Of a stretch of DNA of 64,000 bases, positions 5,877 to 50,895 are shown one piece after another. Numbering within the stretch: position 1 is the first letter of the stretch; the number at the start of each line of letters is the position of its first letter. Source of the DNA: Xiphophorus maculatus (taxonomy: Eukaryota; Chordata; Actinopteri; Cyprinodontiformes; Poeciliidae); contig NC_036453.1 in assembly GCF_002775205.1 (NCBI RefSeq), positions 15,251,594-15,315,593 of the forward strand, written 5' to 3'. The translations under genes and the position numbers were made by a program. The notes under the pieces were generated by a model. It did no database searches and had not been told where the DNA came from. It saw only the letters and a program-made list of their open reading frames with translations.

Positions 5877-7457
5877 CCCAGTTCTGTTGGGCTTAATAAT
5901 ATCAGTCAATGAGAAACAGAAACTGACAGAAACTCCTCGATCTTTGTTTCTCTGAGCTTAAAGCAAAGTTACTCTATCAGGCATGAACGACCAGAACCGG
6001 GCTGCAGAATGCTCCGGTTCTGTTGGGTTTTATACTCATGCTGTTTGTACCAACTAATCCTGTCTTAATAAAGCAAAGTCTCTTCCAGCTTCTGATGTCA
6101 TCATGACTCATCAACATCTGGATCGCCTCAGTCCGTCTGAGTGTCCCACAGTCCGCCAAGGTTTCTAGAGAAGAGTTTTTCTCCTTCAATCCTTCCTAGC
6201 AGCCAGACTGGTTCAGGGTTATGACCTTTAACCTGCGGGATGTTTGGTCAGCTCTCTTAGCTTCACGCTCTGACCTCTGACCTTGGAGCAAGTGCTGACT
6301 TCAACCCAAATCACCAGGTTCTTGTCCCGTCTCAGGTCCTGGTGTTGCCATGGTAAGTGTTTCCCGGGCAGGTTCTCCGGGAGCCAACCTGCAGGTTCTG
6401 GAAAGTGCTGCAGATCCAGAATCGGTCCCTGCTTCCAGAACCACCTGATGCCAGTCAGTGAATCAGCCACCAACTGAGACAGGAAGCAGGGAAGGCCTAA
6501 AGCAGGCAGGGCAGGAGGACCAGGGAACATGCAGATCCTGCTGCTCCAGGATCTGCATGTTCTGGTTCTGGTTCTGTTTCCAGACCAGAACCATACCCAG
6601 GACTTAGCCTGGCCCTGCAGAATGAGGCGGTTCTGATTTGGTTTTCCGGTCCTGACTGGGTTAGGCACCGCCCCATGGTGAGCAACTTTTAAGCAACACG
6701 TTTAACTGATTAGCTTAGCGGTTACGTGGTCCATGAAGGCGTTGACCGATCAGAAAGCCCGGTCTGTTAGTGCGGTTCTGATCCAGAACAACATGGCAAC
6801 ATGGTTTGTTGTTCAGATAGATGAGAACAGTTTTTCTCTGGATGAAGAAATAAAACCATAACTATCTTCAGCACATATTTCAGGTCTTATTTTTATTACT
6901 TTTTCACTGATTTGATATCAGCCATATTTTCTCTCAGTTCTGATTCTGGTATATTAATTTGCTAAATGACTTCTCTGGATAATAACCTGAACATGATCCG
7001 TAACACTATAAGATATAAAACTTTCACACAATATAGAGAAAGAATCAGAATGCTCCAATTATCATAAAAGTCACTGATGTAACTATTGAATCGCTGTTTT
7101 TTCCCCATTAATCATAACAAATCCTGAATTTTAACAGCTCTACACTTCTCTTCACTCTGTGATAAAGAACTAGCAGGTGAGCGCCCTCTGGCGGCCAGTA
7201 GTTTATCTGTGATCAACTTTTCAGTCTGCTATCTTTAATGGCTTAAATATTTTCAGTTTGATGTCAGGTATAGCTGTACAGAGTTGGGAAGATGCTGCAA
7301 TTTGACTTCCTGTGAAAGGTTGTGCGTTTATTTACGCAGCCTGATCCTGTGTCAGGACAAACCCAGGGAGAAACACGCCCATATGAGGAGCCTGTCAGAA
7401 TTCACCCGGGGCTGAAACAACCCACAGCTCGTCCTTGACAGACGAGAAGAAGCCAAG
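5877..7457. other. adamts 3' UTR and intergenic region to ndufa2
   Basis: Contains the likely adamts polyadenylation signal (6067-6072), a hairpin at 6525-6562 and many copies of the GGTTCTG word. No further gene is seen. The last 150 bp before the ndufa2 start are GC-richer and include the probable ndufa2 promoter. Confidence 0.6.
6525..6562. repeat. Perfect hairpin, 16-bp arms, 6-nt loop
   Basis: Arms 6525-6540 and 6547-6562 are perfect reverse complements (gaacatgcagatcctg and its complement) around the loop ctgctc. The flanks ccag and ctgg continue the symmetry after a 2-base bulge. Confidence 0.9.
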
Positions 7458-10400
7458 ATGGCGGCCGCCGCAGCGAGAAGCCTAAGCTCCAATTTGGCTA
7501 AAAACCTCCGAGAGATCCGCCTCCACCTCTGCCAGAGCTCAGCAGCCAGCCAGGGGGCCAGGTGAGCGGGGAGCCGGGGCCGGGGAGGTTCTCCGGTTCA
7601 TACCGAGGCTAACTGCTGCTAACCGGGGCTAGCTAATGCTAACTGATGCTCACAGGGGGTACCTTCTCCCTGGTTCTGAATATTATTCTCAGTGTTGACC
7701 AGGGTTGGTCTCCACCTACCGCATTCTGCGGCCCAGAGACGGAATGAACGGAACAAGAACCTTCCTGGTTCTCTCCGGGTCAGCAGATTCTACTGAGGTC
7801 CAGTTTATTGGCGGTTCTGTCCCGGTCTGTCAATCCCAGAAGAGTGACCAACTGTTAGTGGGTCGACGGTTCTGCTGATTGGGTCACTGAGCTGAAGAGA
7901 ACCGGGTCCAGTTCAGAACTACTGCAGCTCCAGAGCCGCACCCTGTAATGGGTTGTAGTCCTCTGCTCACCTGGACCAGGTGGACCAGGTGTCTCTGTCC
8001 TTGTGGTGTGTTTAGGGGTAATTGGTTTCCTCAGACTCCAACAAACCAGTCGCTGACCATCAGTCTACCTGGTTATCACCTGGTTATTATCTACAGGTGC
8101 TAGTCAAAAAATTAGAATATCATGACAAAGTAATTCCCTGTAAAAAGTAAAATTTGTATGTTTCATTACTCAACTAATGAAAACTCCAAATTCAGCATCT
8201 CAGAAAATTTGAATATTGGGGAAAGGTTAAATATTGAAGACCCCTGATGCTACACTCTAATCAGCTAATTAACACCAAACACCTGTAGATCTGACCTGAC
8301 AGTTGTCTAAAAGATGACCTTTGACACCTTGTACAAGAAGGCAAGACACAAAGGTCATTGCTAAAGAGGCTGGCTGTCCGCTGAGCTCCGAGTTCAAACA
8401 CATTCATAGGGAAGGAAACGATGTGGCAGAAAAAAAATGGACAATCATAATAACCTCACCCTGCAGAGGACTGTGAAACAAACCCATTTAAAAATGTGGA
8501 GAAGATTCACAAAGAGTGGACTGCAGCTGGAGTCGGTGCTTTAAGAACCACCAGGCACAGATATAGACATGGATTGCAGCTGTTTCATTCCTTGTGTCAA
8601 ACCTGAACCAGAGACGGCATCAGAAACGTCTCACCTGGACTGAAGACAAACAGGTCTGGAGGAAGAGCGGAGAGGAGAGGCAGAATCCAAATTGCTTGAG
8701 GTCCAGTGAAAGTTTCCAAAGTCAGTAATGTTTTGGGTGCCATGTCATCTGCTGGTGTTGGTCCACTGTGTTTTCTGAGGTCAAAAGTCAACGCAGCCAC
8801 CTACCAGGAAGCTTTAGAGAACTTCCTGATTCTCACCAACTTTATGCAGATTTAATTTTCCAGCATGACTTGGCACCTGCACACGGTGCCAAAGCTATTA
8901 GTACCTGATTTAACGATCATGGTGTCCCTGTTCTTAATTGGCCAGCAAACGCTCCTGACCTTAACTCCATAGAAAATCTCTGGCGTATTGTGAAGAGGAC
9001 GATGTGATACACCAGACACAACAATTCAGAAGAGCTGATGGCCACCATCAGGACAACCTGGGCTCTCATAACAGCTGAGTAGTGCCACAGACTGATCGAC
9101 TCCGTTGCTGCAGTAATCTGGGCAAAAGGAGCCCCAACTAAGTACTGAGTGCTGAACATGTTCATACTTTTCATCTTCATACTTTCAGTGTGCCAACATT
9201 TCTAAAAATGCTTTTTTAATATTGGTCTTAAGTAATATTAACATTTTCTGAGGTACTGAATTTGGAGTTTTCATTAGTCGCGAGTTTTAATCATTTAATC
9301 ATCAACATTAAAAGAAAAAAATCATTTGAAATATATCAGTCTGAGTGTAAAGAATGAATATAATATACAAGTTTCACTTTTTGAAAGGAATTACTGATTT
9401 AACTTTTTCATGATAATCAAATTTTTTGACCAGCACTGCTATTATTACCTATGAATGAATGATAATAATAACCCATAAACTGAGGGAAATTCACATGGCT
9501 ATTACCATGTGAATTATTTTTTTTTATCTAGAAATTATCTAGTTATCAGCTGGTTATTATCTGGTTAATTCCTGGTTAGTTGGTTATCTAGTTATTATGT
9601 AGTTATCACTTGGTCTTTACCTAGTTATCTAGAAGACTGAGCAGAGGAGAGCCCACTTGTCCTATAGGGACACACCCTAATGGATTCATCCTGGATTTAT
9701 TTGGATTCATAATAACAGGATTTCTGCTGTTTGGAGTTGGCGGATATTGGCACATCAATAAATTTGTGATGGACTGATCCGAACCAGTGAACACTCAGAC
9801 TGACATGCTGTGGGACAGAGACGCGATTCTTTCGCAGGCAAGCTTTAGATGCTAAAACTCACTAGCGGCCTGGAATCCATCTTGGAGAAGTTGTTAGTTT
9901 CAGCCCAATGGGACGACCACGCTAATTTGGATGATTGGAGATGAGAGATGTACCTGTTGAGATTTTAGGGCAGATGGAAATTTTAATTCTGCCCGATCTA
10001 AAGACAATAGTTTATTCTGAATCTAGCTCCCTGTGGCCTTGGCTGGCTGACTATCTCAAATCTCCTGGAGTTTATCTAAACAAGTTGCTCTTTCCAATCT
10101 CCTCTCCCCTTCTGAGTGACAACCGTGGAGTCATATGGCAGGACTCAAGGACTTGCTCTGAGATAATACCACCTTATCAGAAACTGTTTTTTGCAAGGGA
10201 GAGCAGGCTGCACAAAATTCATGGTCAAACTGCACACACATTACATTGTTACAGATACATTTCCCTGACATCTCTGCCTTTGCTGGCCATGTCTTGAATG
10301 TTGCTACTTGTACTGTCTTTCCCTGATGTGTTGGTTCTTGCCCTGTTTGTATGTCTAGTTTATTACTTCTAGAAATTGTGCAGTACTCACTATTTAGACC

Positions 10401-12245: not shown

Positions 12246-15200
12246 ATGCCTGAGAGTGAGTCTGTTAGCATGCTAACTGTCGGTTAGATAGTGTAGCATC
12301 CTGTAGCTAAAAACAAATCTCTATATAATATAGCAATATGATTATGAATTAAACTCTATAATCCCAGAAACATCTCTGGTTGTTTCAGAATGGGTCCTTT
12401 AATCTCAAAGAGACTCCGTTAGCTCAGACCGTCACCAGACTCCGCTCTTCTTCTGCCGGTTTGAAGCAGTTTTGCGGTTCAGTTTCTCCTCTTCGTTGCT
12501 TTTAAGCTCTTTATCAGGAAGATTAAAACTGAGGACTCGCGGATCATATCGGCATAACTCTCATCATCTGTAGGGTAAATTAGACCAGACAAAAGCAGAT
12601 TACAGTGGCTGGTTCCGTGCAGGCCAGATAAACCGGATTTCTGATCATGATGTGGAACCTCCAGATGTTTCCTCAACGGTCTGGCTTTAGGTCTGACACC
12701 CAGGGCCCGGCTGAGGCGGGCCGGGTTCCTTCTGGAGACTCCAGGCAACTTTCCTTCTCTTTGTGAAACGTGAGAGGAGGTTGATGAGCTGAGCGCCTCA
12801 CTCACTTCTTCTCACTCACTTCTCCTGAGTACACGGAGACCCTCCTGTAGGAGCAGAAGACAGGTGTTCTTAGGTGATCTCACATGTCTTCTGGTTTGTA
12901 GAGCTAGTGGACGCCTCAGTCAAAGGTCAAAGGTTTGTCCTGGGACTGGGGGTCGCGTTTGGTCCTCAGCCCCAGCTTCCTGTTGTTTGGAGGTAAATGT
13001 GTGGCGCCCCTGCTGTCCGCCTGCTGCCTAACATATTGTCTGTCTTGCAGCTGAGAGCTACTCCAACCCTCTGGCCCCTGAGGGCCACGAAGTGGATGAC
13101 CACCGCTCTGCCGCGCAGTGAGTGCTGCTCACACACACACTGCAACACACATCGTCACGGCTCCTGCTGAACTCTGTGTGTGTCTCCTCAGGTCCAAACT
13201 GACCAATGATGACTTCAGGAAGTTGCTGATGACGCCTCGGGCCACGCCCGCCTCGGCTCCACCCACCAAGTCCAGACATCATGAGTGAGTTGGCTCAGAG
13301 AGCAGGAGGAGGTCAAAGGTCAACTGTTTCTGCTGCACCCCTGCTGACGGGGAGCCGTGTGTTTATTTCCCAGAATGCCGAGGGACTACAACGAGGACGA
13401 GGACCCCGCGGCCAGGAGGAGGAAGAAGAAGAGGTCAGAGGTCATGTTCCAGGCTGGTCAGAGTTGGTCCATCTGTCCTCAGCCGTCCTCAGCTGTCCCC
13501 TGTGTGTCCCCTGTCTGTCCCCCTGCAGCTACTACGCCAAGCTGCGGCAGCAGGAGCTGGAGCGGGAGAGAGAGCTGGCTGAGAAGTACCGGGACCGGGC
13601 CCGAGAGCGCCGCGACGGCGTCAACAAGGACTATGAAGAGACCGAGCTCATCAGCACTACGGCCAACTACCGGGCCGTCGGACCCACCGCCGAGGCGTGA
13701 GTACTGCTGCTCCTCCTGGTCCAGGTCCAGGTTCTGGTTCTGGTCTCTACATATAAACCCGCCGTCTCATGTGATCCAGGGACAAGTCTGCAGCAGAGAA
13801 GCGCCGGCAGCTGATCCAGGAGTCCAAGTTCTTGGGTGGTGACATGGAGCACACTCACTTGGTGAAAGGTCTGGACTTCGCTCTGCTGCAGAAGGTCAGG
13901 CTGGGGATCAGGGGTCAGGGGTCAGGCAGGGTCCGCTGGGTCAGCTCTGAATGTGTGTGTCTTCCAGGTGAGAGCTGAGATCACCAGCAAGGAGAAGGAG
14001 GAGGAGGACATGATGGAGAAGGTCCAGAAGGAGACCAAGTAAGACCGGCATGTCCTGCACGGCTAGAACGGGTCAGAACCAGTTCTGATCTGCTCTGTGT
14101 TTAAACAGGAAGGACGTGGAGCCGGAGGAGAAGATCGAGTTCAAGACTCGACTGGGTGAGTCCCCGGTACCAAGGACATGTTCAAGAGTTCAACCCAGGA
14201 GTCCAACTGCTGCTAGGGGTGGACAAACCCGTTACTAGGTGGTCGACCCTGTTGCTAGGGTTGCTGTGATTGGTTGTAGGTGTGAACCTGGAAAGACAGG
14301 TTTACACCTACAACCAATCACAGAGACTTTTATTGGTGGTTCCTCTTGTGTAATGGCAGTTGATAACAGTTTTCTGCAGCATTGGCGCCTCCTGCTGGTG
14401 AGGTGCAGACGTCTGATAACTCTGTCCAGGTAGCTTTGACTTCCTAAGGCTCAGATAACGCAGCAGGTCAGGTCTTGGCTCTGATTGGCTGAAACGTGAA
14501 ACAAAGTAAAACAATAAACCCAATGCGCCGCCCCTCTACTCCAACTGAGTAGGGGGGCTTCTTTACTCAAATTGAAGCTCCGCTCCTTTACTGTTAACAT
14601 CAGCAGCAGCTGTGAAGGCCTGACACACTGCAGGAATCTGAGGGAACATTCAGAGAGAAATCGTTCTGTAGTCGTAAGAGTTTTTTCCCAAATGGTGTCA
14701 CCGGTGGCTGCTGTTAATCCCGTGCTAAAAGTAGCTGCCGTTAGCCTCATGTCCATCCTGAAGCCGTTGTCCCGGGCGTCCCCAGGCAGGAACATCTACC
14801 GCGTGGCGTTCCGGTCGGGCGTCCAGGAGAGGAACGAGCTCTTCCTGCCCGGCAGGATGGCCTACGTGGTCGACCTGGATGACGAGTTCACCGACACCGA
14901 CATCCCCACCACCCTGATCCGCAGCAAGGCCGACTGCCCCAGCATGGAGGTCAGACACGTCCCCACAGAAACACTGCTGTCCCTCTGTCTCCCTCTGTGT
15001 CCTCACGCTGTCCTCTTGCTGTCCCAGGCTCAGACGACTCTCACCACCAACGACATCGTGATCTCCAAGCTGACCCAGATCCTGTCCTACCTGAGACAGG
15101 GGACACGCCACAAGAAGATGAAGAAGAAGGATAAAGGTTGGACTCACTTGCAGCCTGTGTCCCCTGTTCTTGTCCCCTTCCTAACGTGTCTCTGTTTCAG

Positions 15201-15835
15201 GTAAACTGGATGACAAGCGAGCTCCTGAAGCTGATCTCAGGTGGGTTGTCCTTCACCGTCTCTGTCCCCACGCCCGGCTGTCCGAGTAACGCCTCCACTC
15301 CTCTTTCAGCATCTTTGACGACATCGGGGACTACATCCCGTCCGCCACGTCCAAACCCAAAGACAAAGAGCGCCACCGGGGACGAGACGAAGACAGCAAG
15401 AACAGAAGACACGCCTACTTTGAGAAACCGCGCGGAGACGAACACCCGCTGATAGATGTAGACACGGGTAGGTGTCCCCCACTCTGACCCAGACTGACCA
15501 GCTGATGGGTAACCTATCCATCTGTCTGTCCCCTGTCCTCCAGCTCCTGGGTCGATCAAAGACCAGATCAAGATGATCAATGAGAAGTTTGGAGCAGCAG
15601 CCAACCAGTGGCAGAACCAGGAACCATATCCTTATTTACTGGGACTTCCTGTCTGACTCTGATCCGGTTCTGAATGGTACCATGAGTCCAGTTTTCAGCC
15701 TTAACTGGTGTTTACTGGTTCCCAGAGGAGGGACTCCAGTAAGGAACAGCTGGGAGATTTCTTTGGAGGATCCAACTCCTATGCAGAGTGTTACCCAGCA
15801 ACGTGAGACACACATGCACACACACCCCCCCCCCC

Positions 15836-15866
<31 letters not shown>

Positions 15867-17740: not shown

Positions 17741-17750
17741 GTCACATGAC
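17741..17750. promoter_or_regulatory. Palindromic E-box-like site in front of chm
   Basis: GTCACATGAC, 18 bases before the chm ATG. It is one base from GTCACGTGAC, the USF/MiT-TFE (CLEAR) site found near lysosomal and membrane-traffic genes. Position in the 5' UTR or core promoter is inferred, not shown. Confidence 0.35.
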
Positions 17751-17768
17751 CGTGTTTTTTCTGCCAAC

Positions 17769-20700
17769 ATGGCTACCGAGGACCTGCCGTCTGATTTTGA
17801 CATCGTCATTTTGGGCACAGGTAGGCGCTAACCTGGATGTTGTGACGTAATCTGGCTTGGGTCTTGTGTCGTAATAAGTTCTGGTTCTGGCTCGATCCAA
17901 ACCATCCCCAAAGACCGATGTAAACCAGTCTGAACCAGACCAGGAGCTGCACTTAGCCAAGCCGTTAGCTATAGGCTAACAGTCAATGCATTTTCAATGA
18001 CAGCGGCTAGAAGCTAACGGTTAGCTGCTAGATGGAAGAAGTAAGATAAACACTACTACTACTACTAATAACAATAATAATAATATTAATTGTAATAGTA
18101 ATAATGTAGTAACGAGGCTGAAAGTGACAAGAAAGAAGAGAAGCAAAAAAGGACTACAAAACTGAGCTAGCTTTAGCTAGCTGAGGCTAGCAGCTGCTCA
18201 GGCTGGTGGGTGTGTCAGATCATCGGTAGTAAACAATGTTTATGGTCAGCAGCAAATCAATAATCACTCTTATCATCATTGCTCCTCTTTATTAGAACTG
18301 AAACGCTGATTGGTTCCAGATTAATCAGAATCAGAACCTGGAACAGGACCCCCACCCACAGACTCAGCAGAACACCAGTGTGCTTACTGGTTACTGGTCA
18401 CTACAGAACCTCCACATGAGAGCCGTCATGTGGAGGTTCTGTAGAAACCCGGTTGTGTTCCTGGAGGTTCTGATCTGGAGGTTCTGCTGGGTCTAATAAA
18501 GTTCTGGTCCAGACTCTTCTGGTTTTGTTAAGTAGAACCCAGATGTTCTCCTCTTCAGAATGAAGCTTGCTGCTGAGAGGCGTTCACCAACATGCCTGAA
18601 TTAAAACATCTTCAGTTGTTTTTACTCCAGAGGAAAAGTTCATTTCACTGTTTATATTAATTTAATAAACAACAGAGCTGCACAGAGACTGAGCCCCGTG
18701 CTTTGACTAGGACACAAGGGAGGTCTGTGGGGATTGTGTGCTATGTGGTTCTGGGTCCGGATAGAAAAGAACTGAGGCGGGCCTCCTTTATCCCCTCCTG
18801 TCATCGATTCTGAATGTTAGATGATGAATCTGTATCGGTTATTGATTGATCAGGTTTGGCTGAGTCGGTGGTGGCAGCTGCCTGTTCGAGGGTCGGACAA
18901 CGAGTTCTCCACCTGGACAGGTGAGCTCCAGCCTGCCTTAGGTCAATGTCTACTTAATGATCAATCAGGTCATTGATTATCACCAATAATATCACCCGGG
19001 AGGGCTTTTATTGTGAAAGGCTTCCGTTTGTGTCCTCAGGAGGAGCTACTATGCCGCGAACTGGGCTAGCTTCACCTTCAACGGCCTGCTCACCTGGATC
19101 CAGGAGCAGAACGTGAGATTATTGGTTATTGATCATATGATCAGTGATTATTGATCTTCAGCTGACTGATTTGTGTGTCTTGGTAGGAGGAGCCAAAGCC
19201 AGAGGAGGTCAGGGATTGGTCAGGTCTAACGGAGGAAGGGGAGGAGCTAATTCACCTGTCACAGGCAGACTCCGCCTCCATCACCAACCTGCAGGTGTTC
19301 AGCTACGCCAGGTAAGCTACGCCCCCTGCCTCCACCTGTGGGCTGGGACGACTTGTGAGCTGTTTACATCTCCCCAGTGAGGAAGAGGAGGAGGAGGAAG
19401 CTGCAAACACCACAGAAGAAGAGAAAGCAGCTGATGAAGAAGTGGTTAAAGAGTCGTCAGAGACAGAATCTGCAGGTGGGACCTCATCGATACTCATTCT
19501 CTGTTATTGATCAGCATCTGGATTAACAACTCACATGTTCAGACTCAAAGGAGGAAGAGGAGGAAAAGGAGGGAGCTGGGGAGGAAGAGGAACAGGTGAG
19601 GAAAAGTCAGTGCATTAACCAGGTGTGATCATGTGACACTAACTGTTATCAACCAATCACAGGCCAATCAGGCCGAAGGGGAGGAGCCAGAGGCTGACCA
19701 GCCACACCCCTCTTCTCCTGGCCAATCAGAGCCAAGCAGGGAGAAGATCAGTTACGCCCAGCTGGTGAAGGAAGGCCGGAGGTTCAACATCGACCTGGTC
19801 TCCAAGGTAAACACAGCTGTGATGTCATCATTTGGACAGCAGGAGTAGCAGCTAATGATGTGACACACTAAGCCCCTCCCCCTCCTCAGCTCATGTTTTC
19901 TCGTGGCTCATTGGTTGATCTGCTCATCAAGTCAAACGTCAGCCGCTACGCCGAGTTCAAGAACGTCACCAGGATCCTCACCTATCGCCACGGCAACATA
20001 GAGCAGGTTGGGTTTTGGTCTGCCATCCTCCTGCTAGGCTCTCTACTGACCTGTGACCTCTGACCCCTGCCAGGTGCCGTGCAGCAGAGCAGATGTGTTT
20101 GCGAGTCGCCAGCTGTCGGTAGTGGAAAAGAGGAAGTTGATGCGCTTCTTGACTTCCTGTGTGGAGGAGACGGAGGAGCAGACAGGTGACTACTACCTCT
20201 CCTCCTGATGACATCATCAACTGTTCAGCCTGAGGCATTGTGGGTAATGCAATCTTCTGCCTTCAGCATACCACGGTCGGCCATATTTGGAGTTCCTGCG
20301 GGACCAGCAGCTGGGGGACAATCTGCAGCACTTCCTGCTTCACTCCATCGCCATGGTAGCCGAAGACACACCCACAGAGGAAGGTCTTGCCTCGACACGT
20401 CACTTCCTGCGCAGCCTGGGTCGCTACGGCAACACTCCCTTCCTGTTTCCTGTGTACGGCCTTGGAGAGATCCCCCAGTGCTTCTGCAGGTGAGAACCAA
20501 CTGTTCCCATGACGACGACGCCACAGGTGGAAGGGAGGGAGGTTCTGCTCCGACCCGGTACTGCTCGGCAGACATCAGTGCTTGTTCTGCTTGATTTTAA
20601 AGTTCTGGTCCGACCTTCTTGGGAGGTTCTGGTTCTGTTGGGTCGGGTTTGATCAGCTGGTACTGCCTCCAACCACAAGCTGGACAGTGTTTGTTTGCAG

Positions 20701-23435: not shown

Positions 23436-26266
23436 ATGTACGGTAAGCTAGAAGGGCCATGATTCAGTAAAAAGTTCTTTATAAACTAATAATTTAGTCA
23501 GTTTGTCTTAAATATCTAAAGTTTAATTCAGAATCAGCCAGGGTGTTGGACCCTGCTGAGCAGGTTCACCAATCAGCTGTCAGGATTTATTCTCAGAAAG
23601 GGGCGGGGCCTGGCGGCAGACCCATACCATATTTTAACATGCTCCACTGCACTCCAGAACCGAAGGGGGCGCTACTTCCCACATGAGCCTCGATCTTACA
23701 CTGTTGTTTTTTTTTTTTTTTTAAATCTTTTGATTTGTTAGAACAGTTATCAAACACTAACATAGTTGTTGGTTTTACTCTTAATTCTTTTCTAAAGCTG
23801 CAGACACTTACTGTTTACAACTTTTTTATTATTAGAAAAATTATCTAATGTATGAAATAGCTCCCCCTTCAGTTCTGGAGAGTCTCCAACTCCCCCAGTT
23901 ATGACTTGTAAGGCCGACTTTGCATTTCAATATGGTTGTTCCCAGCATCAGCAGCAGTGTTGGTTTTAGTTCCCTGCAGCAGCAGACAGACCAAGGTTTT
24001 TATTGGCTCTAGTGGCCTTTATTTGATAGTGAATTGACAGGAAAGTGGGTAATGAGAGAAGGGGGAAGACATGTGGCAAAGGTCACCATGCCGGGAATCG
24101 AAACTGCGATGGCCGCCTCCATTACTAAGGCATCCATATGTGGGTTGTGCTTGACCCCTGCACCACCACAGCACCCCATGATGAACGTTCTCTGTCCTGC
24201 AGGACCTTCAGCCATGGAACCAGAACCAGAACCGGACCTGACCATTGTCCTGCTGGGGAACTCTGGTGTGGGGAAGAGCGCGTCGGGGAACACCATCCTA
24301 GGCCGCGCGGCGTTCATGTCCCGGGCGTCCTTCAGTCCCAGCAGCATCCCTGTCAGACAGGAAGTGGGTCGGGTCTTCGGGACGCGGGTCCGGGTCGTGG
24401 ACACGGCCGGGATCCTGGAGTTCGAGGAACAGATCCGGTTCTGCTGCCAGGAAGTTCAGCGGACCAGCCGGGCCCACCTGTTCCTGCTGGTTCTGAAGCT
24501 GGACCGCTTCACCCAGGAGCAGAACCGGGCGGTTGAGGCATCCCTCAGGGCAGTCGGGGGGGAAGGCTTCGACCGCTGCTTCCTGCTCTTCACCCATGGA
24601 GACGCCCTGAAGGACGCCTCGTTAAGGGAGGCCGCCTCGTTAAGGGAGGCCGCCTCGTTAAGAGACGCCGCCCTGAGGGATTTTGTGTTCAGGGACGAGC
24701 AGAGCTCGCTACCGGAGGTGGCTCGTAGGTTCTATGGGCGGATGCACCTGTTCAACAATGAGGACGGTGGAGGACAGCAGGTCCAGGAGCTACTGGACAA
24801 GGCTGGACACCTGTTGCTACCTTCAGGTAATGAGCTGACTAGCTAATTAGATAACAAGCTAGCAAGCTAATTAGAATTAGATAGCCAACTAACGAGGTGG
24901 TATTATGTAATATTGACTTTATATTGTGTTCTAATGTTTTTCCCGCAGTGTTTCTTTGATTCTTTCATGTGTGAGAAATCCTTTAATCTCCATGGCAACC
25001 ATTCAGCTGTGCAAAACGCCTAGGTGGACCTACCCCCGTCTTCGAGGCTCAGCTCCTCCCTCACTCAGCTCCTACAGACTAGCCAGCAGCAATTAGCAAA
25101 CAGCTGGTGGAACTGCTGAGCTCATTATAGGAGCTGCTGCTCAGAGCAACACTGGTAATAATAGCAAAGGGTTAACAGAGGAGCTTGGGATGACTTCCTG
25201 GAGGCGGAGCTTCAGAAAGAGAAGGAGTTTCTTAAAGAGACAGATGCACACTTTCAAGGCATTAAATCAGAAAGTAAAATTTCTATTATGAAGCATTTTT
25301 ATAACAACTGAAGGTAAAATGGAAAACATGGTACCGGCCCTTTAAGGAGACAGCAAGCGGTCCACTGGCTCTGTTGGGTCGATTGTTCTGTTTGATATTC
25401 AAACTGGTTTAAACTGGAAGGGTGTGAATACTTTTCTCCCCACTTTCTCTGGTCTTGCAGAAACTTCCAGTGACGGGACAGACCGGGTCACAGGTTCTGA
25501 TGGTCCAGACGGTTCTGATGGTTTTGCTGGTTCCGCCCTGCTGAGGGACAGGAGGATCGTCCTGATCGGACCAGCTGGTTCTGGAAAGAGTTCTGCTGGG
25601 AACACTCTGCTCGGGTTCCGGCGCTTTGAACCAGACTCGGATTTTGCCGGAGTGCGGTCAGACCCGGAGCGCTGCTCTGCTGAGGTGGGCCGGGTCCAGC
25701 TCACTGTGGTGGACTCGGCTGGACTGTCGGAGGAGGTTCTGACCCTAAACCGGCTGGTTATGGAACTCCGGACCTGGATGTACCTGGCGGAACCGGGACC
25801 TCACGTACTGGTTCTGGTGCTGAAGATCGGCCGGCTGAGCTACGGTTCCACCCAACTGCTGCGCCTGCTGACCCGGCTCCTGGACCAGAACCAGAATCTG
25901 GCCCGGCATGCTGCAGTTCTGTTCACCCACGGAGACGCCCTGGGGGGCCGGAACCTGACTGACCGGGTCCAGGCCAGCAGCTGCGTGTCGGACCTGCTGA
26001 CCCGCTGCGGCGGCAGGCACGCGGTTCTGGATAACACTCAGAACCAGGATCAGGTCCAGGTGGACCGGTTCCTACGCCTGCTGGACCAGATGGTCCAAGA
26101 GAACTCGGGACGGTTCTTGAGCCCAGCTGACTGGAACCGGCCACCAGGTCCGGGTCAAACGTTCTGGAGCAGACTGAGAGGATCGGGTCTGCTCAGGGTT
26201 CTGTCTGCAGTCGGGTTGGTCCAGATTTTGCTGGTCAATAACCAGAACTATCGGTTCTGCTGCTGA
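23436..26266 (+). CDS. GIMAP-family GTPase with two AIG1 domains
   Basis: GTPase of the immune-associated nucleotide-binding family (septin-like, membrane-linked, lymphocyte survival in mammals). Exons 23436-23442, 24203-24826, 25461-26266; 478 residues. Domain 1: G1 GNSGVGKSASGNTILG, G3 DTAG, then FTHGDALKD at the conserved box. Domain 2: G1 GPAGSGKSSAGNTLLG, G3 DSAGL, FTHGDALGG. Both P-loops keep the GKS. The two domains are joined by an intron in phase 1 (S|ETSSDG), so this is one gene, not two. The C-terminus LLRVLSAVGLVQILLV is hydrophobic and could be a membrane anchor. In-frame 18-bp duplications near 24617-24670 give a SLREAASLREAASLRDAA helix. If the 7-base first exon is not used, ATG 24214 is the start. 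AATAAA at 26473-26478. Confidence 0.85.
24000..24196. mobile_element. Dispersed repeat fragment in GIMAP intron
   Basis: The stretch (agtgaattgacaggaaagtg ... gggaatcgaaactgcgatgg ... ctgcaccaccacagcacccc) resembles a short tRNA- or snRNA-related repeat that I know as common in fish. The family is not resolved. It supplies an open frame joined to the GIMAP exon, so the ATG at 24034 is not a credible start. Confidence 0.4.
24827..25460 (+). other. GIMAP intron between the two AIG1 exons
   Basis: The intron begins with a gctaat/agctag microrepeat and has no recognised gene or element. Confidence 0.6.
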
Positions 26267-33158: not shown

Positions 33159-33290
33159 TTTATTGTTTGAATCAGTGGGATTACATGAGATTGGATCAGA
33201 ACCAACACCCAGAGGACAGAAACAGGTCATGATTTAAAAAAGATTCTGATGATCAGGAAATATTCAGGCATTAAAATCAGAGAAACTTCA

Positions 33291-36200: not shown

Positions 36201-39200
36201 TCCAGGTTCTGACCTGGCAGCTCTCTGGTCCACTTCCTGTTGGCAGCTTGTGGCAACAGGAAGTGGACTCCTGACCCAGACTCACCGTAGGTGGTGATGT
36301 GTGAGACGCAGCGCTGGATGGCCGGGGAAACAGAACCTTTCACGGCGCCGTCAGTCATCGACATCTGACTCAGCCTAGCTGGGTTCTGATTGGCTGCAGG
36401 TGGACCCTCAGAAGCTGGATGCTGATTGGCCAGAGCTCTCTTCAGGTGCTGGAACATGGTCTCAGTGCTGCGCTGCTCCTCAAAGCGTAACGACACGGTC
36501 CTGATGGGAGAACACCTGTCCAGGCTCAGCCAATCACAGCTGGGGCGGAGCTGCTCTCCGTATGAATACTTTTGGACTGGACTGAAGGTGTGTGAGAGAC
36601 TCACCTTTCTGCTGTTACCAAGGTAATGGTGTCTTCATACAAAACCATATCTGAAAGAGGAAAGAGATCCAAACTGACTCAAGATATGAAGAAATGGAAA
36701 AAAATTTACATCAACTCAACCTGATGGGGGTACAGGTGTGTCTTCTCTAGAAAGAACAGGAAGTTGCAGTCAAAATTAAAAAATGACTATAAACATCCAT
36801 TTCCTTAAGGTGTGATTATTTATGGGTGTAAATATTTTTAGGGGGTGAATATCTTGGCGTCAGCCAGTGCGGCTCTACCTGTGGGACTGAGCATGCTCAG
36901 TGGGAAGGTCAGGCTGCGCTGCCCGGCTCTCTCCACCGGGTGGAGGCTCACTCCTTCGTCCCACAGCACCAGCCAGGCGTCAGACTGAGTGGAAGCCCCG
37001 CCCACGTCCACCATGCGCACCTTGCTGACGGCTGAGGCCCCGCCCACCTCAGCGTAGGACACCCCCCCTGGTAGAATGACCTGAAGGCAGGGCAGAGGTC
37101 AGTTTGTCTGCCTCGGCGTCAACGGCGACGGCAGCAGGTTTCTACCTTAAGGATGTGCACCAGGTGATTCTGCAGCGAGTCGCTGTTGTCGGCGTCACAG
37201 ATGATGTGATCGTTCAGCGTCACCATCTCAAACTGGAGCGCCGACCTGAAATAGCCACAGGTCACGGAATCAGAATTGGAAAACTGAACGAATCATTCCT
37301 GCTGGAAGAGCATCCTGAGGCTGCAGCATCTCTATCAAAATCTTCGTCTTCTGACTAGCATTAGCATGCTAACTCCTCAGGTCTTTTCATATTTAGACAG
37401 CCATTTTTCTTTTCGAGATGGCAGTCATTTGGAAGTCGCTTAGATCAATTTTGAAGCCTTTTAGACCAATTGAGGCAAACAACTGCCTCATCATTTGTTT
37501 TCCACTTTGCTCATCCGGTGGTTCATAATCTTCTGAAGCGAATCAGAAACTGAGGAGCTAGCTGTTAGCCAGCCTCACTCCAGGCACCAACCGTAAAAGC
37601 ATGAAGATGAAACACAGACTGAGACAGTCGTCTTTATGGTTATCGTTAGCTTCTGCTAAGTGCTTAGCTACTTACAGTCAGCTTCTAATAATTATTTTGT
37701 TTAGAGGCTTAGTGTTATCTTTCACTAGTTTTCTATGTTTTTGGTAGTTTATGATTAGTGGAGCTAAGATTCTCGTTTCGCGAATTAGTGGTTGGTGAAG
37801 CTAACTTTGGTTAGCTGTGCTGTGCTACTGCTGATTTTAGTGCTAATACATTCTTCATTACAACCATGGCGGCCATCTTGAAAAATCCAAATATTTTCAC
37901 GAAATATTTCTGTGTCCAGTTATGTCTGATTTGATACCAAAAGTATTAATCCGTGATAAATTATGGCACATTTTGTGCAAAAATTAAGTTTCATTGACAG
38001 CCATAACCACCATCTTGTTTTTAGTGGCCAGGCATTTGTTTAAAAAAAAAAATTAAAAAAAATCAATCCTCTGGAAACATCTGGACCACGTTCGGTTCTC
38101 ATGCACGCAAGTGAGGATTCAAAAGAAATAATCTGCTGCATCATGATGGAGGTTTGTGTTCACACTTCAGCTGGAATAATTAATTTTTCTGGAATCACGA
38201 CAGATTTCTGGGACTTGTTTATCATTTATTAATTTCTGTTACAAGTAAAATTAATTAATCTTTTAGTATTATTTTTACTGATGACTTCTGATTGGCTGGT
38301 TGAGTTTTATGTTTCTGATCTGGTTTCTAATCCTGTTCATAATCTGGATTTACCCGTCTTTGAGGAAAACGGACAAAACTTCTCTCAGGTCCAGGACGTC
38401 ACAGGCTGCAGAATCATTTTCCAACGAGAAGAAGAAGCGATCTGCCTCCAGTTTCCCATGGAGTTCTTCCTCCTCCTCTTCTTCCTCACCTGCCCAGGTA
38501 ACACAGAACACATTATTTAAAGGGACAGAGCGCCTCCTGGTGGACACACTGCACTGGGCCGACTACAGGCTCAGAGCGTTCTGGGAGGGGGAGGAGACAG
38601 CATTGAGGTCCAATCAGAACCACTGGCATGGACAACAGAACCAGCACCATCAGAACTGGGCCACCAGGTTCTGGTGCTGGTTCTGATAGCAGCTGGTCTT
38701 CAGCCTCCTACGGACCCACAGCTCCCTCTGCAGGCGGCATTGGGTACTGCAATGTTTCTGCTGTGATGGAAGAACCCAATCAGAACCTGGCCGGTTCTGA
38801 GCCTGGGGTGACACCAGAGAGCCTTTCTGGTTTGGGTCCAACTTCTGATGAGGTCTGACCACACCGGAACCAAACTCTCAGAACAGCCAGGACTTCCTAC
38901 ACCCCAGTCTGGTTCTGGCTCTGGTTCTGGTTCTGGTCCAGCAGTCTTCAGGTTCTTTGTGTTTCTGTTCAGAAGGAATCTAACCTCGGCAGTCATGGTG
39001 TCTTTGCTCCAAGGGTCAAAGGTAGAGCCTCACCTGAGGGGACGGAGGCCTGCTTCCTGTTGGCTGGTTGAGGCTGGTGAGGTCGGACTTCTGCAGGAGA
39101 ACACAGGTGTGTTAGAGGCTTCAACTGTGACCTCAGGTGAGGTCAGGTGAGGTTTACCTGTGTACTCGTTGAGACGCAGCAACTCAATCTGCAGAGCCTG

Positions 39201-42200
39201 GCTGGCTTTCTCAGCCAGCAGGATGGGGGAGGGGCTCTGAGGGTCAGACGAAGACACCTGCACACAGGTAGAATGGTTCAGTTGATGGTTCGGGGGTGTA
39301 GAGGGTGCAGCGCTAAGCTAAGAGAGAGAGACCTTGGCTCCAGAGCAGATCAGAGACATTGTTTCCTCCACATTGTCACTGACAACCACCTGGCACAGCC
39401 TCTGAAACAACAACAACAACATCAACATCATCATCATCATCATCATCATCCGTTTTCCTTTGACCCGGTCGCCTCTGCTCTCACCTGGTTCATCATGGAG
39501 CGGCTGGAGGTCAGAGCGTGGACTCGCCTGTAGCGCCCCCTGCTGTATTTGTTCTGGATAAACGCCGCCCTCTCCTGCTCCGTCGCCTCCGGATGCAGCT
39601 GGTCTGCTGCCGGCACGGCTGGAGCCCACACCTGATTGGCCAGCCGGTTGCCGTAGGTGACAAAGAGCTGAAAGGATGGAGAAAGGTCAGGAAGAACTTC
39701 CTGTGTGGCAGGTTCAGCCGACTGAAACGCTCAGGTTTGTTCAGGTCATGGATCCAACATGGCCTTCACCAAACTTTCACAAATCAAAGTTTAACAAAAC
39801 TCGAACTGTTTACTCCATGACTGAAGAGTCTGAACTTTTTAAACTAGAGCGATCCTCAACATGGGGAAAATATGGTGGAATCTCCCTTTAGCAGTTAAGA
39901 GGCTAACTTCAGCTTGTATAATTCAGGATGTTTATGTTTGGACTAACGCTGGATTACAGTCAAATATGTCAAAACACATGGTAGCACATACAGACGTAGC
40001 ATGGCAACCATGTTTATTTATACAGATTTCTTTAAAGAAGAAAATACAAGGCGTGAGTGGCTATCCCAGGCATACTAGCTATTAGCTTATCCAAGGCTAA
40101 TGCTAGCCCATCTGAAGCTAACATCAGCTTCTCCAACCCTAATGCTAGCCTACCTACAGTTAACACCAACTTTTCCAATGCTAATGCTAGCCTACCTACA
40201 GCTAACACCAGCTTCTCCAATGCTAATGCTAGCCTACCTACAGCTAACACCAACTTTTCCAATGCTAATGCTAGCCTACCTACAGCTAACACCAACTTTT
40301 CCAATGCTAATGCTAGCCTACCTACAGCTAACACCAGCTTCTCCAAAGCTAATGCTAGCCTACCTACAGCAAACACTAGGTTCTCCAATGATAATGCTAG
40401 CCTATCTAGAGCTAACTCCAGCTTCTCCAAACTTTGGAATGGTCATGGCCTCTTAAGACGATTTCCCTGAAGAACCAATGTTGATCCTTCAGGCTTCACC
40501 TGTATCAGTGGTTCAGTCTTAATTTTGGCAGTAATAGGACACCATATGTACGTAGTGTTCTGGAGACAGCCCTTCCTGGGTAAAGCACTCTGCTGTTTCC
40601 GTGTTGCTATCAAGAACCAAAACACTGCAGCCAGATTGCTGACATTTTGAGTCGTTCTGGTGATTCTAGTGAAGTTTAAACCTCTAAACCTCCAATTATT
40701 CAGCTTTAGCCAGACAGGAGCCCCTTACTTCAGACCCTCAGACCTATCAGTCCTCCTCACATTTCAGAATCACCCAAAGGAAACTTATGTTTTAGTTTTC
40801 AGCCTTGGCCGTTACACCCGGGGTGTTTAGAATGCTTAACACCTTCACTCTTCCTGCATGTTTGCTCAAAGCTGCATTTCCAGTTTGCTGCTGCTGCTGA
40901 TAATTATGCTGTTACCTTTGTGCCCCAACCTGAGACTGATCTATGTCTCTGTCAGCAAGCAACAGTTAGTGATGTGTATGTCTGAATCTGTTCTGGCTCG
41001 CCTCCACAGTGATAAACTCTAACTATTGTCAGGGTATTCCCTCCTCAGATGAAATACAACTTATACCCAACCAGTCAATCAGCATCAAGTTAAGCATAAA
41101 ACATTCTTACTTTGTGCCTTTTAGTTAATATCCCTGCATTTCTACAGCTACCATGTTGGGTATGAGAGAGATTTCATGGTTTTACAGGAGATTTTTAGAG
41201 ATGTAGCCAGAGTTGCTCATCTCGCCTTGTGTAGCAAGACTTCCGGAAAGCCAGTTTTGTCTTCTGTTGAAGCTGCTGCCACTGAGTAAACGGTACCAAC
41301 CCCCACGTGTTTAAAGCTTAGTTTTGTATGAATCTGAACAATGATCTACGTTTCCCAACATGTTGATCCTTCAGGCTTCACCTGTATCAGTGGTTCAGTC
41401 CAGGTCTTGTTGTCCATCCTCAGGCTGCGGACCCTGGACAGGCTGTTGCCCAAAACTCTGTGCTGAGCTGAGAGCAGACAGACATTGATGGACAATCAGA
41501 GCAGTCTGGTCTCTAGCAGTACCTTTGGTAGCCACATCCTCAGTGGCTCCGCCCACAAGTTGTTTGCTTCCTACCTGCACAGTTATGGCAGATGACCAAC
41601 AGCAGGTTAACCGATGCCCACTCAGGATTGGCAGCTCCGCAGTCACCACACACTTTGTTGTAGGGGTTCTCCCACAGACGTAGTGCCACCTGGCTGCAGG
41701 ATTCAGCACTCTGGATGGTGGAGGTCAGGCTATCCAGCCAGAGCGACAGGTCCTTTGACGAGTCAACGGACAGACTATAGCACAGAAACAAGGTTAGCAG
41801 TGGTGCCAAGCGTAGTGGACAGGAAGGCTTGACGGACAGGTGAGTACTTGAAGGTCTTGTATGGGGTGACGAGGGCAAACGAGTGCTTTCCTGTCGCTTT
41901 CACCGTGGCTACGTTCAGGGGCACGGAGAAGGAGGCGATGCCCAACTGGAAGCTGTCTTTGTTGGGGTAAATCCAAAGGTCGTGACCCCAGACGGCAGCA
42001 TAGGCACGGCTCCGGGAGTCTTTCAAGGTGACCTGTCCATGTAGCTCAGAGGGGGTTGGGCTTTGCAGGCCACGAGTCGCCAACAGAGATGTGACCCACC
42101 CTTCCTGAACCTCTGGGGGAAAGAAAGGAGAAGAAAATAAGGATGAGATTCCGAGGTCCTACCAAAGGAACAAATCCAGAGGATTCATGCTCCCATCTTC

Positions 42201-45200
42201 TGATCTACTGCCAGAAACGTGTCTGATCCTGGGTGATGGATAAGGGGTCTGAACTGGAAGTGATTTGATCTGACATTCCTGTTCTCACTCTGTAGCTCCA
42301 CCAAACTTCACATCAGGACCAGAACATCTGGAGGGATCTAAAGTGATATCAAATTCTACTGAAGTACTTAGGGACCACGACTAAAGCTATACAAGGCTAA
42401 AACAGTGGACAGAGTTAAGTCAGAAATGTCTTCAGCTCATATCTCAGGACAAGAGATGGGGCGAAAAGAGACGGGACAAACTGAGACCTATGAGGATGCA
42501 ATTCAGGAGAGAGTTTTTAACAATGTTCTTCTTGGAATCCATGTCTGTGTTTGTCTCTCCCAAGACGTGTGGACAGCACCTTCATAGGTAATCAATCATA
42601 TTAACATGAACCAGACATGAGTCTCTGAGGAACCAAGTCCCAGAAAGACAACAGGACTCTGTCCAGGCGTCACTGTCCTACCGTTACTGTGAGCCATGAA
42701 GTCGTAGTGTTTCTTCCTGAAGTAGACGGAGAAGCGTCTTTTGTCCTGAGGCTTCACGTTGGTGATACTGGAGACATGGAACAGCAACTCACTGAACCGG
42801 TCCTGATCCACAAAACAAGAACCCAGTCAGTCAGCTGGCCGACACACCGGAGAACACACACAGGTTAAAGCACACAGGAGTACACTTACTGTTCGTTTCT
42901 TACGCAGGGACATCAGCTGGCCATCCAATGTCACCCACAGAACGCTGTATCTGATGGACAGAAAAGATATCATCACCTGGTATCCATCCATCTATCCATC
43001 CCCCAAAGCCCCCCTGCAAAGCCTTGAGGTTCTGGTCCTGGTACCTGAAGCCCTTCCAGACGTCCAGCCAGCTGGCCCGGACCACAGCGCTCTGAGGAGC
43101 TGAGCCTCCGCCGCCGCCCTTCTTCCTGGAGACCCTGATGGTGGCTGCCCTGCGGAGCAAAGAGCTGTCAGCAGACTAGGGCATCTGTCAGGTTTTACTC
43201 TGTGATCCTTTAATATACCCTGAGTTAGATCCACTGCTCACTGGTGCTACCTGGTCAACATGACAGGTGTTCTGGTCACATGATTCTAGTGTGACCACGT
43301 TGGAATTCAGAGTCCATACGTTACCATTATTAAAACTGAGCTTTAATGTTATTGGTTTCTATGACAACATGTCTGTGTTTCTGGCATCAGCCAATAGGAG
43401 CGCCTGGAGGCATTAAAACCAATCATCAGCTCTAGTTAAATGTTGAACAGAAGAAGAACCCGGAAGGAGATCCCTCAGAGAACATCGGACCTGGACATAC
43501 CTGGGAATCTTCTGCTTCACTGGTTTGGACTTCCTGCTTGGAGGGGGTGGAGCCGGTCGAGTCGGTTTCAAGCGATCTGATTGGTTGGGTGAAACTCTAG
43601 ATGGTAACCAACGAAAGAATAGCGTCAGTGTTAGAAGAAGGAGAAATCATCATCATCATCACAGACTCACCTGGTGGTAACCGGGTCAGAACCAGGATCC
43701 TTATCCACTGATGCCTCAGAACCAGAGACGGCGGGGCTACTGCCTTTATCATCCTCCTCATTGGACGACTCTGATTCAGCTTCTTCCTGATTGGTCCAAG
43801 TACCCAACACTGTGACATATGGATCTTCTTCTTTGATGGACAGAGGGGATGGAGACTGAACTGGAACCAGAACCATTGACCAGAATCAGACAGAGAGAAG
43901 GAAGGAAGGTCAGCTGATCAGAAACAGATCAAAACTGCTTGGGTCAGTAAGACAGGAACCAGTGGAACCCTGGGCAGGAATGATTGGACAGTGAGACAAG
44001 AACTAGTAGAACCCGGAGAAAGGAAACCAGGGTTTATAAGAGCTTTGATCAGTGGACCACAGGTTCTAACTGTATTCAGATCAGTTTAAGCAGATTTAGA
44101 AGAATCTGGATTCAGACAGGTCCTGAAATTCCAGAACAGAGACAGGTTGATGGTACCAGTACCTTCCTGAGCAGTAACTCCAGCGACCTCCATAGATGGA
44201 AACTTGACTCCTGCGGTTGGGTCCAAAGATGCCTTGACCAGCTGCGACAGAGCCCCGACATCTGGACACGTTCAGAACAACATGGACAGGCAGGTTTTAC
44301 CATGGGAAGATGTCTGTCTGTCCTGGGTCAGTCTAAAACCCAGAGGATCAGGCTTTAGGGTCAGAGGTTCTGGTCCTATTTCTGGGTCAGAAGAAGACCG
44401 TCTGAACCCATCTCTAGAACTTCAGTCCATGTCATTTAAAAACAGGCGAATGGACAGACTTTTCTCTGGTTACAGAAGCAGGAAGCAGGTCATCCCCCCT
44501 CCCTGAAACAACCTCCAGCTCCTCCTGGTGGGTTCCACCCGTTCTACCTTCAGCTGTAATCAGCCACCAGGACCACGAAGAAGCAGCAGCTCAACTCTGA
44601 GCTCCATGGATGCACAAAACTCTGCATTCATCAATCTATGTTCTAGATTGATGAATCCAATCTAGAACATCTACGGTCCGTCTAAGGCAGCGATCCCCAA
44701 AGTCGGTCCTCGAGGACTGGCATCCTGCATGTTTTAGTTCTCTCCCTGGTTTAACGCACCTGGATCAAATGATGGCTCGTTAGAGGCCTAAGAAGAGCAT
44801 TGACTTGCTGTAAAGGTTGTCGGTACCACCAGGGAGAGAACTAAAACATGCAGGATGCCGGTCCTCGAGAACCGACTTTGGGGACCCCTGGTCTAAGGTT
44901 TGTCTATGTCAGATCCTCAATCTGATTGGATGGCTTACCTGTGTGACTCCCTCCGTTCATGTTCAGTGGTGGGTGTGGCTCAAGTGAAAGGGGCGGAGCT
45001 GATGGGTTAGGAATGTTGTTAACAAACTCCTCCAAGCTGGTGATGTTACTCAGTGAGCTGATGATGCTTTCTAGGCTCGGAGAGTCTGAGCTGTTGGCAG
45101 CAGGTGTGGAGGGGGCAGGCCTTAGCGTAGCCTCACCATTAGCAGCCACAGCGTTAGCAGCCTCAGCTAACCCAGGAATGGTTGTGGAGATACTGTCAGT

Positions 45201-49079: not shown

Positions 49080-49212
49080 TACTGAGCTGGACCAGAAACA
49101 GGACCATGAACAAAACCAAGACCAGAACCAGAACAAAAACCAGGACCAAAACAAGAAGCAGGACCAGAATCAAAACCAGAACCAGGACCAGGAACAAAAC
49201 CAGGACTAGAAC
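49080..49212. repeat. accagaaccagga/accaaaac minisatellite
   Basis: Degenerate units of 6 and 12 bp (accaga, accaggaccaaa, aacaaaaccagg), built from the same CAGAACC word as the chm tail repeat. Open on the minus strand as VLVLVLVL, not a gene. Confidence 0.85.
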
Positions 49213-50849
49213 CTCATGTGGTTCTGGTTCAGTAAAGCCTGGGTTTAGAGTTTTCACTGACATGAACTGAAGACAGACTGAAGCTCCCATACTGCTGTAT
49301 GTGTGTTAGTGCATGTGTGTGTTCTGGTTTAGCTATTCTAATTAGGCCCATTTCTGATGTATTTCTATCCTTGTGAAGACCGATGGCATTATGGGGCCCG
49401 AAGCCCGGTTCTACTGCGCTGACCCCGTGGTTTAGGGAAAATGTCTGGGTTACAGATAAACACGTTTACTAAAATGAATCCTACACAAGTTCCTCATATG
49501 GGTAGAAACTGGTGTTTAGACCCGACCCACTTCCTGTCAAAGGAGAGACGGGGCGGGCGAGCGAATTGAAAACAGACCTCCTCTCTCTTTCTCGCTCGCC
49601 CAGCTGGATCAGAGTCAGACTGAAGAGGAGCAGTGAGGAAGAGGAACAGTGAGGAAGATCCGATAGAACCGAGGAGTGGAGCTTCATCTGAAGGTTTCTA
49701 ACTTTTCTTTCTGTAACTTTTGCTGATTCTGCAGTTCTGAGGTTCTGCCGGTCCAGTTGGAGGTTCCGTCTGTGCGGCTGGAGGTTCTGCTGGTCTGGTT
49801 GGAGGTTCTGGGTTCTGAACCCAGGCAGTCTGGCAGGAAAAGTCTCTGAGTGGAGTTCTGCTGGTTCTGATCCGATCCCCTCCACGGCTGCTCGGAAACT
49901 TGTTTCAGGTCAGGAAGTTGATCCACAGAGGATCTGGTCCCAGATCAGCAGCCGGCGGTTCTGATCCGGTCATCCAGATCCTCACAGAACTTCCAGGTTC
50001 CTAAAGAACCCAACTGAACTGCCAGAACCAGCAAAACTATTCTGGCAGAATGACATCAGGACCAGCTGAAGGGTTCTGACGGACAGCTCCAAATACATGG
50101 ACCGGACCGGGACCGGAGCTGGACCCAGATCTCCATCTGGACCTCTAACTGGAACTGAAACTGGACTTGGATCTGGACCCAGAACCGGACCTAAGACAGG
50201 AGGTTCTGGAGCTTCTGCAGCTGAGCCCGGTGAGCTCAGAGACCAAGAAGGAAACTGCTGTTGTTGTGACATCATGAGCATCTGCTGCTGACCCCAGACA
50301 GTCACATGACCGCATCATGACCTCATGACCATCATGACATCATCGTGACCTCAGCTCACCTTCCCGTGTCCTGAGTTGTAACAGCTGCTGGTTCTTGTTC
50401 TGTTCTGGTTCTGCTCACTCTTTCTTTCTCTGTCTGCAGGTCAGAGGTGATCAGTCTAAACCAATCAGGTGCCAGACAACAGGTCACCTGGGGCGCTGAC
50501 AGCCAGGTGAGAGTGACATCACAACTACTTTGTGATTGGCTGCTGCAGGTTACCTGGACAGACGTTACCTGAGGACGAGGACACAGCAGCTACTCTCTCT
50601 CTCCTCGCTGCAGCCACAGGAAATACCTTCTTGTTTATTTTCTTCTTCTGTGGTCCAGCCACATTCTTTCCTCAACCAGGACCAGCTGTGATTGGCTGAG
50701 CCCAGAGCAGGACGAGCTCTGATTGGACGGCTGCCCTCCGGCACAGTGAGGGATTTGTTTCCGTCTGTTTGAAGGAGCTCAACTGCTTTAACAGACGCTG
50801 CCTCCAGGAAAACCCACCAGAACCAGAATCTGGGTCAGTACCCTGCCTT

Positions 50850-50895
50850 TCCCTGTGGTTCTGTTCAGACAGTTTGCTGAACAGAACCACAGGGA
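50850..50895. repeat. Perfect hairpin, 19-bp arms, 8-nt loop
   Basis: Arms 50850-50868 (tccctgtggttctgttcag) and 50877-50895 are exact reverse complements around acagtttg. In the upstream region or first intron of the pdgfrb-like gene. Confidence 0.95.

Follow-up and report, generated by a model that had tools for sequence, protein, structure and literature searches.

Introduction

The short perfect hairpins dispersed through a 64-kb stretch of the Xiphophorus maculatus genome (C11:15251594-15315593 within the 704,300,149-base assembly; the whole stretch is called the window below) have close described counterparts in the insertions left by DNA polymerase theta (Pol theta) end joining, or synthesis-dependent microhomology-mediated end joining (SD-MMEJ). 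As described in PMC11292364, these insertions share with our loci inverted copies of adjacent DNA of 3-30 bp with a favoured 6-nt loop, alternative re-pairing, and apparently joining by short microhomology. In the same account, two terminal base pairs are enough for Pol theta to begin stem-loop synthesis, and it adopts alternative pairings given time; the Drosophila work cited there (Hanscom et al, 2022) indicates that a 6-nt loop favours Pol theta inverted templated insertions, and the mammalian inverted templated insertions cited there measure 3-30 bp. For zebrafish Pol theta acting in vitro, the authors of PMC12040184 take certain bands to be snap-back products. Unlike these systems, our loci are read as sequence from a fish reference genome.

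Short template-switch mutations, as presented in PMC7954356 and PMC8794818, likewise share one-step inverted copying, copied lengths near 12 and perfect stems with the hairpins analysed here, which differ from them in narrow loops, frequent chains and one insertion copied from two flanks. Small inverted triplications have the direct/inverted/direct layout that we see at 30131-30187 and are reported to be unstable; they average 148/160/148 bp with spacers of 30 bp, whereas the arms here measure 12-18 bp (PMC13334657). Very short templated inverted duplications at microhomology, most of about 5-34 bp, also characterise the fold-back inversions described in yeast, which differ in a 41-nt loop site and in their dependence on Pol delta and nonhomologous end joining (NHEJ) (PMC11724301). 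Among the genome-wide perfect inverted repeats covered in PMC13155455, the eukaryotic ones are mostly AT-rich with zero spacer, whereas those considered here are non-simple, with arms of at least 11-12 bp. Our literature search returned nothing directly on template switching in fish, on de novo microRNAs (miRNAs) formed by template switching, or on short-spacer repeats in teleosts.

Both candidate processes for the hairpins, fold-back synthesis at broken ends and template switching at replication forks, are already known. The present analysis of a fish reference genome adds a loop spectrum, the frequency of chains and a single clean two-flank insertion. On this evidence, we consider the odds to be slightly in favour of the hairpins having arisen, as neutral mutational scars, by fold-back (snap-back) DNA synthesis that most likely acted at a double-strand break.

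Results

Hairpins exceed chance expectation in the window and in the wider genome

The original prediction had listed eight hairpins in the window, calling all but the longest perfect. All eight are present (8/8), and seven are indeed perfect, the longest (14264) carrying one G-T mismatch. The list itself was incomplete: the repeats at 482-512, 4986-5022, 30131-30166, 30154-30187 and 44626-44656 also have arms of at least 11 bp, and a hairpin at 6563-6593 (arm 10), which abuts the one at 6525, was likewise absent from it.

With loops of 3-15 nt, the window contains 15 perfect inverted repeats whose arms reach 10 bp or more; 12 of them reach at least 11 bp and 10 at least 13 bp. Dinucleotide shuffling, the control that had been set beforehand as the test, yields 0-2 repeats per shuffle with arms of at least 11 bp (5 in 12 shuffles, against the 12 observed), and none in all 12 shuffles with arms of at least 13 bp. 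Mirror repeats of equal spacing, counted as a further control, number 25 in the window, all of them simple sequence; the filter takes the mirror repeats from 25 to 0 and leaves all 12 inverted repeats in place. Simple-sequence arms were filtered out of most counts, with slightly different filters from count to count.

For comparison, we sampled 25 stretches of 10 kb each, 20 at round positions and 5 at random ones. One of them, L013, was excluded from the counts, consisting of one satellite with 14 copies of a single hairpin, so that the sample comprises 24 stretches and 240 kb. In that satellite (L013 5338-9105, 14 listed hairpin copies), some 17-bp arms are perfect and others are mismatched near the loop. 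The window and the 24 stretches together contain 42 inverted repeats at a score of at least 12, compared with 0-3 in eight shuffles. A chance origin is rejected by the shuffles and the mirror-repeat controls. For arms of at least 12 bp and loops of 3-12 nt, we count 10 repeats in the 64 kb of the window and 24 in the 240 kb of the sample; the hairpin density of the window is ordinary for the 704-Mb genome, and such hairpins are common genome-wide.

Further counts rest on 37 repeats at 28 loci of the window and the sample. This set combines 34 repeats with arms of at least 12 bp and spacers of 3-12 nt with three window hairpins added by hand, namely 14264 (one mismatch), 9488 and 482 (both with 11-bp arms). 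A count that admits up to three mismatches in arms of 16 bp or more yields 13 repeats, of which nine are perfect, three have one mismatch and one has three. The perfect state of most long arms hints at a possible fast turnover, given small numbers in which some repeats share a locus and from which mutated short arms escape detection.

Loops are narrow, arms end abruptly and hairpins form chains

Repeats of the sample whose arms reach 12 bp or more are concentrated at short spacers, with 4, 3, 17, 4, 0, 2, 0 and 5 cases at spacers of 0-2, 3-4, 5-8, 9-12, 13-20, 21-40, 41-80 and 81-160 nt, respectively. Mirror repeats number 0 up to a spacer of 20 nt and 4 beyond. The same bins hold 0, 0, 8, 2, 1, 1, 6 and 8 repeats in the window, the single case at 13-20 nt being the outer part of the 14264 hairpin. 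Within the 3-12 range, loops of 5-8 nt are found in 27 of the 37 repeats, with a mode of 6. These loops and the arms of 11-27 bp agree with the small loop (about 6 nt) and insert length (3-30) of Pol theta products.

The arms mostly end abruptly. A single repeat is present at 21 of the 28 loci, 19 of which have enough flank for a test of the arm ends, and outer complementarity is absent beyond the arms in 17 of these 19. The exceptions are the 50850 hairpin, the one clear case (0 of 760 null pairs score as high), and L005 7146 (p 0.043), which is part of a chain.

Hairpins are also joined to one another far more often than random placement allows. We observed 9 joins among the 37 repeats, compared with an expectation of 0.20-0.25 and a maximum of 3 in 5000 placements. 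When arms down to 8 bp are admitted, a further overlapping or abutting inverted repeat occurs at 13 of the 28 loci versus 25 of 600 random 40-nt places; seven of the 13 are chains already counted as joins, and the extra match at L015 9963 stems from a tandem repeat in the arm. Abutting partners accompany 9 of the 37 repeats (7 loci), versus 40 of 2000 random placements, the partner at 27327 being partly (CA)n sequence. A run at L036 4335-4398 comprises four consecutive hairpins, each with a 5-nt spacer. The surrounding segment (L036 4276-4398) is about 120 bp of mostly back-and-forth inverted copies with 2-5-nt spacers, and matches itself alone among the candidates scored.

The inverted copy is the derived one at four places

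The direction of copying can be read at window positions 4984-4999 and 30153-30166 and in sample stretches L007 and L018, and at all four the inverted copy is the derived one. Two of these are minisatellite arrays of the window. The array at 4942-5119 consists of 8 direct units (at most 5 mismatches in 16) and, at 4984-4999, a single perfect unit in inverted orientation. The 21-bp array at 29668-31394 has about 70 direct units (at most 4 mismatches in 14) and again one perfect inverted unit, 30153-30166, whose flanking direct units lie 44 apart (2 x 21 + 2). A second inverted match to the array unit, with 4 mismatches, is located in a miniature inverted-repeat transposable element (MITE) at 29950. 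A related minisatellite lies at 40084-40430, about 9 kb away, the two having 21- and 42-bp units.

An inserted inverted copy of adjacent DNA that is absent from relatives is seen in L007 and, less cleanly, in L018. In L007, a 20-nt stretch is cleanly missing from three paralogues (C19, L038 and L020), and the window copy of the same repeat (24900-25050) has a larger gap spanning the place. The 20 nt lie wholly within inverted copies of the left and right flanks. The left-flank copy (3171-3182) derives from 3149-3160 across a loop of 10 nt, the right-flank copy (3181-3194) derives from 3202-3215 across a loop of 7 nt, and the two overlap by AT at 3181-3182. Because the right-hand copy carries the variant bases of L007 itself, its sequence points to local synthesis postdating the divergence of the repeat, unless a later correction brought the flank into line with the copy. 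The whole is what one would expect if both ends of a break had undergone snap-back synthesis, for example by Pol theta.

L018 sits in a transposon-like repeat, and in a BLAST comparison the homology on the left stops at 6978-6979 in four of the six fetched copies; a fifth agrees on the stop by a weak alignment, and the sixth was fetched for the right side. Two of the copies, L042 and L040, agree with each other across the site. Past the stop follow inverted copies of 6961-6968, 6968-6980 and 6978-6988 and a direct copy of 6975-6986, leaving five bases unexplained. Element sequence has been replaced here, with an uncertain right limit, at about 7028 by a weak match (shuffle p 0.01) or otherwise at about 7047.

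Hairpins of the window

The first hairpin of the original list, at 6525-6562 (arms 16, loop 6, perfect), is directly abutted by a second one at 6563-6593 (arms 10, loop 11), and the resulting two-hairpin layout of 6525-6593 resembles that in L007. The hairpin at 9488-9515 is perfect, with arms of 11 bp and a loop of 6 nt, while the longest, at 14264-14323 (arms 27 with the G-T mismatch, loop 6), is located upstream of an open frame with a RED_N domain. For the perfect hairpin at 18401-18444 (arms 19, loop 6), the right-arm motif recurs in direct orientation at 18461 and 18475 (one mismatch each), and these recurrences are a hint, from sequence comparison, that the left arm may be the copy; weaker inverted matches at 18332 (3 mismatches) and 18344 (2 mismatches) weigh against that hint. 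The perfect hairpin at 27327-27359 (arms 13, loop 7) has a hairpin with 7-bp arms nearby, at 27301-27324.

Further along, the hairpin at 36228-36268 is perfect, with arms of 15 bp and a loop of 11 nt. On the minus strand of 36228-36285, it starts about 15 nt past GTGAGT, which by eye is a candidate 5' splice site. At 44626-44670, two perfect hairpins are interlocked, one at 44626-44656 (arms 13, loop 5) and the other at 44638-44670 (arms 13, loop 7); the pair is two inverted copies made in succession. The last of the listed hairpins, at 50850-50895 (arms 19, loop 8, perfect), is contained in a longer imperfect palindrome of about 50822-50922.

Beyond the original list, the hairpin at 4986-5022 (arms 13, loop 11) involves the inverted unit 4984-4999 among direct minisatellite units. 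Similarly, the hairpins at 30131-30166 and 30154-30187 have their middle arm in common, which corresponds to the inverted unit 30153-30166 in the 21-bp direct array. The perfect hairpin at 482-512 (arms 11, loop 9) is part of a dispersed repeat whose matches have 69-85% identity.

Pfam matches in the window (7 of 10 open frames tried) comprise ADAMTS, RED_N, two AIG1 GTPases, ArfGap and a protein kinase domain; an Ig_3 match falls below the cut-off. Open frames and Pfam matches give a loose indication for the placement of the hairpins in introns or intergenic DNA, as stated in the original prediction.

Most hairpin sites match themselves alone in the genome searches

Whole-genome searches used each listed hairpin with about 100 bases of flank (about 50 bases for 50850; in one search, the right flank of 44638 was trimmed ahead of an adjoining MITE). 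The search skips very common words and stops scoring at 40 candidates (40 of 47 in one search and 40 of 1266 in another); an absent match is not proof of rarity. Among the candidates scored, seven of the eight listed sites match themselves alone; at the eighth, 9488, matches elsewhere involve the flanks (about 9388-9436 and 9524-9581) and not the hairpin. No dispersed copies carrying the listed hairpins were found in the 704-Mb genome among these candidates. Since seven of the eight sites match only themselves and the eighth is repeated in its flanks only, the hairpins are not one MITE family, as the original prediction had also held, at the sensitivity of the search. In the sample, L010, L014, L015, L020, L035, L036 and L038 match themselves alone (among 40 of 406 candidates scored), and the search with L037 returned itself alone.

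The window does contain two related hAT-like MITEs, at 29836-30038 and 44688-44890, both with inverted ends. By eye, their flanks form 8-bp duplications, AACTTGAC/AACTAGAC (one mismatch) and GTCTAAGG twice. The 21-bp array is interrupted by the first of them; for the second, 30 or more relatives occur at other places in the genome.

Discussion

Fold-back synthesis would account for these hairpins as follows. The process would begin with a free 3' end, most likely one exposed by a double-strand break, that folds back over a loop of about 5-8 nt and pairs by a few bases. A polymerase would extend it over some 11-27 nt, with the end's own strand as template. Unfolding of the extended end and its joining to the other side would then leave a perfect inverted repeat. 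A growing end that folds repeatedly would give a chain, and two ends that both fold would give two abutting hairpins. Among known pathways, Pol theta-mediated end joining fits best.

The main competitor is a short-range template switch at the replication fork (the four-point model), in which one arm arises in a single step as the polymerase copies the nearby complementary or nascent strand before returning. In the great-ape comparisons of PMC7954356, 4017 such events are reported, with a median copied length of 12 in the gold-standard set, and the majority of patterns make single inverted repeats, while PMC8794818 describes how new stems may arise in one event. The single inverted array units at 4984-4999 and 30153-30166 are compatible with it as well. 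On its own, however, fork switching predicts neither a loop peak at 5-8 nt with no repeats at 13-20 nt, as in the sample, nor inverted copies of both flanks that meet at 2 nt, as in L007; an intrastrand version would have the same loop limit. The narrow loops, the serial copies and the two-flank insertion lead us to favour fold-back at a broken end over a fork switch, which we regard as rather unlikely for these loci, though a serious rival. Two ends that fold, extend and join by 2 nt are more simply described as break repair. The original prediction had ascribed the hairpins to replication template switching. Its broader component, inverted copying from nearby DNA, is supported by an excess above chance, mostly single-copy sites (at the sensitivity of the search), mostly abrupt arm ends and the four derived cases, whereas its attribution to the replication fork in particular is not.

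Other origins appear still less probable. Older imperfect palindromes may have been made perfect by template switching or by conversion between the arms, and homogenisation of arms is described in yeast (PMC8604942). The 50850-50895 hairpin, within its longer imperfect palindrome (its anchored score of 9 is equalled by none of 760 null pairs), suggests just such a correction, with the centre made perfect; as a general account this is improbable, as 17 of the 19 isolated hairpins lack outer complementarity. Pieces of transposons, whether terminal repeats, Helitron ends or MITEs, are very improbable as a source: L016 7043-7079 and window 482-512 do sit in dispersed repeats, and a hAT-like MITE starts at 44688, just past the 44626-44670 pair, but for seven of the eight listed sites the search of 704 Mb, within its limits, returned the site itself and nothing else. 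We give hardly any credence to functional miRNA-like RNA hairpins kept by selection. The folds are stable in silico, and the longest hairpin has 27-bp arms, but density is similar in stretches chosen regardless of genes. Stems of 11-27 bp with 6-11-nt loops are shorter than Drosha substrates, and no Rfam family reaches the gathering score in the window; the suggested link to miRNAs is not supported. We propose no function for the hairpins, because hairpins of the same kind occur in stretches taken regardless of genes.

Several observations weigh against fold-back synthesis at breaks, or limit its reach. The eight listed hairpins are assigned to it by analogy with the sample loci, and 6525-6593, although laid out like L007, matches itself alone among the candidates scored and has a right half that is the common GGTTCTG motif. 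The two-flank structure is known from one locus, L007, whose junction has a 2-nt overlap of the copies and no clear deletion. The inverted unit at 30153-30166 looks like an in-place inversion, and a fork switch or a micro-inversion fits it at least as well as fold-back; the 50850 hairpin is compatible with the correction of an older palindrome. In the window, 14 repeats have spacers of 41-160 nt, versus 10 at 3-12 nt, and some of the 14 are ends of MITEs or units of arrays. The hairpin at L016 7043-7079 is old, being common to a paralogue of 77% identity; 482-512, outside the original list, is carried by a dispersed repeat; and L005 6226 and 7146 lie at the edges of dispersed repeats. From the described systems, yeast Mre11 is said to remove hairpins whose loops measure up to about 8 nt, and the fold-back inversions studied in yeast required Pol delta and NHEJ (both in PMC11724301). 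In vitro, stem-loops are extended by Pol eta and Pol lambda as well (PMC11292364).

Point mutation is unlikely to produce long perfect stems, and the copying error behind them therefore tells the origin of new RNA stems. Loop spectrum, chains and two-flank insertions together offer a test, applicable to the sequence of any genome, between fork switching and break repair. We tentatively suggest, at somewhat less than even odds, that short perfect hairpins with loops of 5-8 nt are mostly scars of germline Pol theta snap-back synthesis rather than of replication forks, in this vertebrate genome and perhaps in any other. If this is true, hairpins that have been credited to fork switching, including proto-miRNAs, would need re-assignment, and the germline activity of Pol theta would stand recorded in the loop spectrum, chains and two-flank insertions of a single reference genome.

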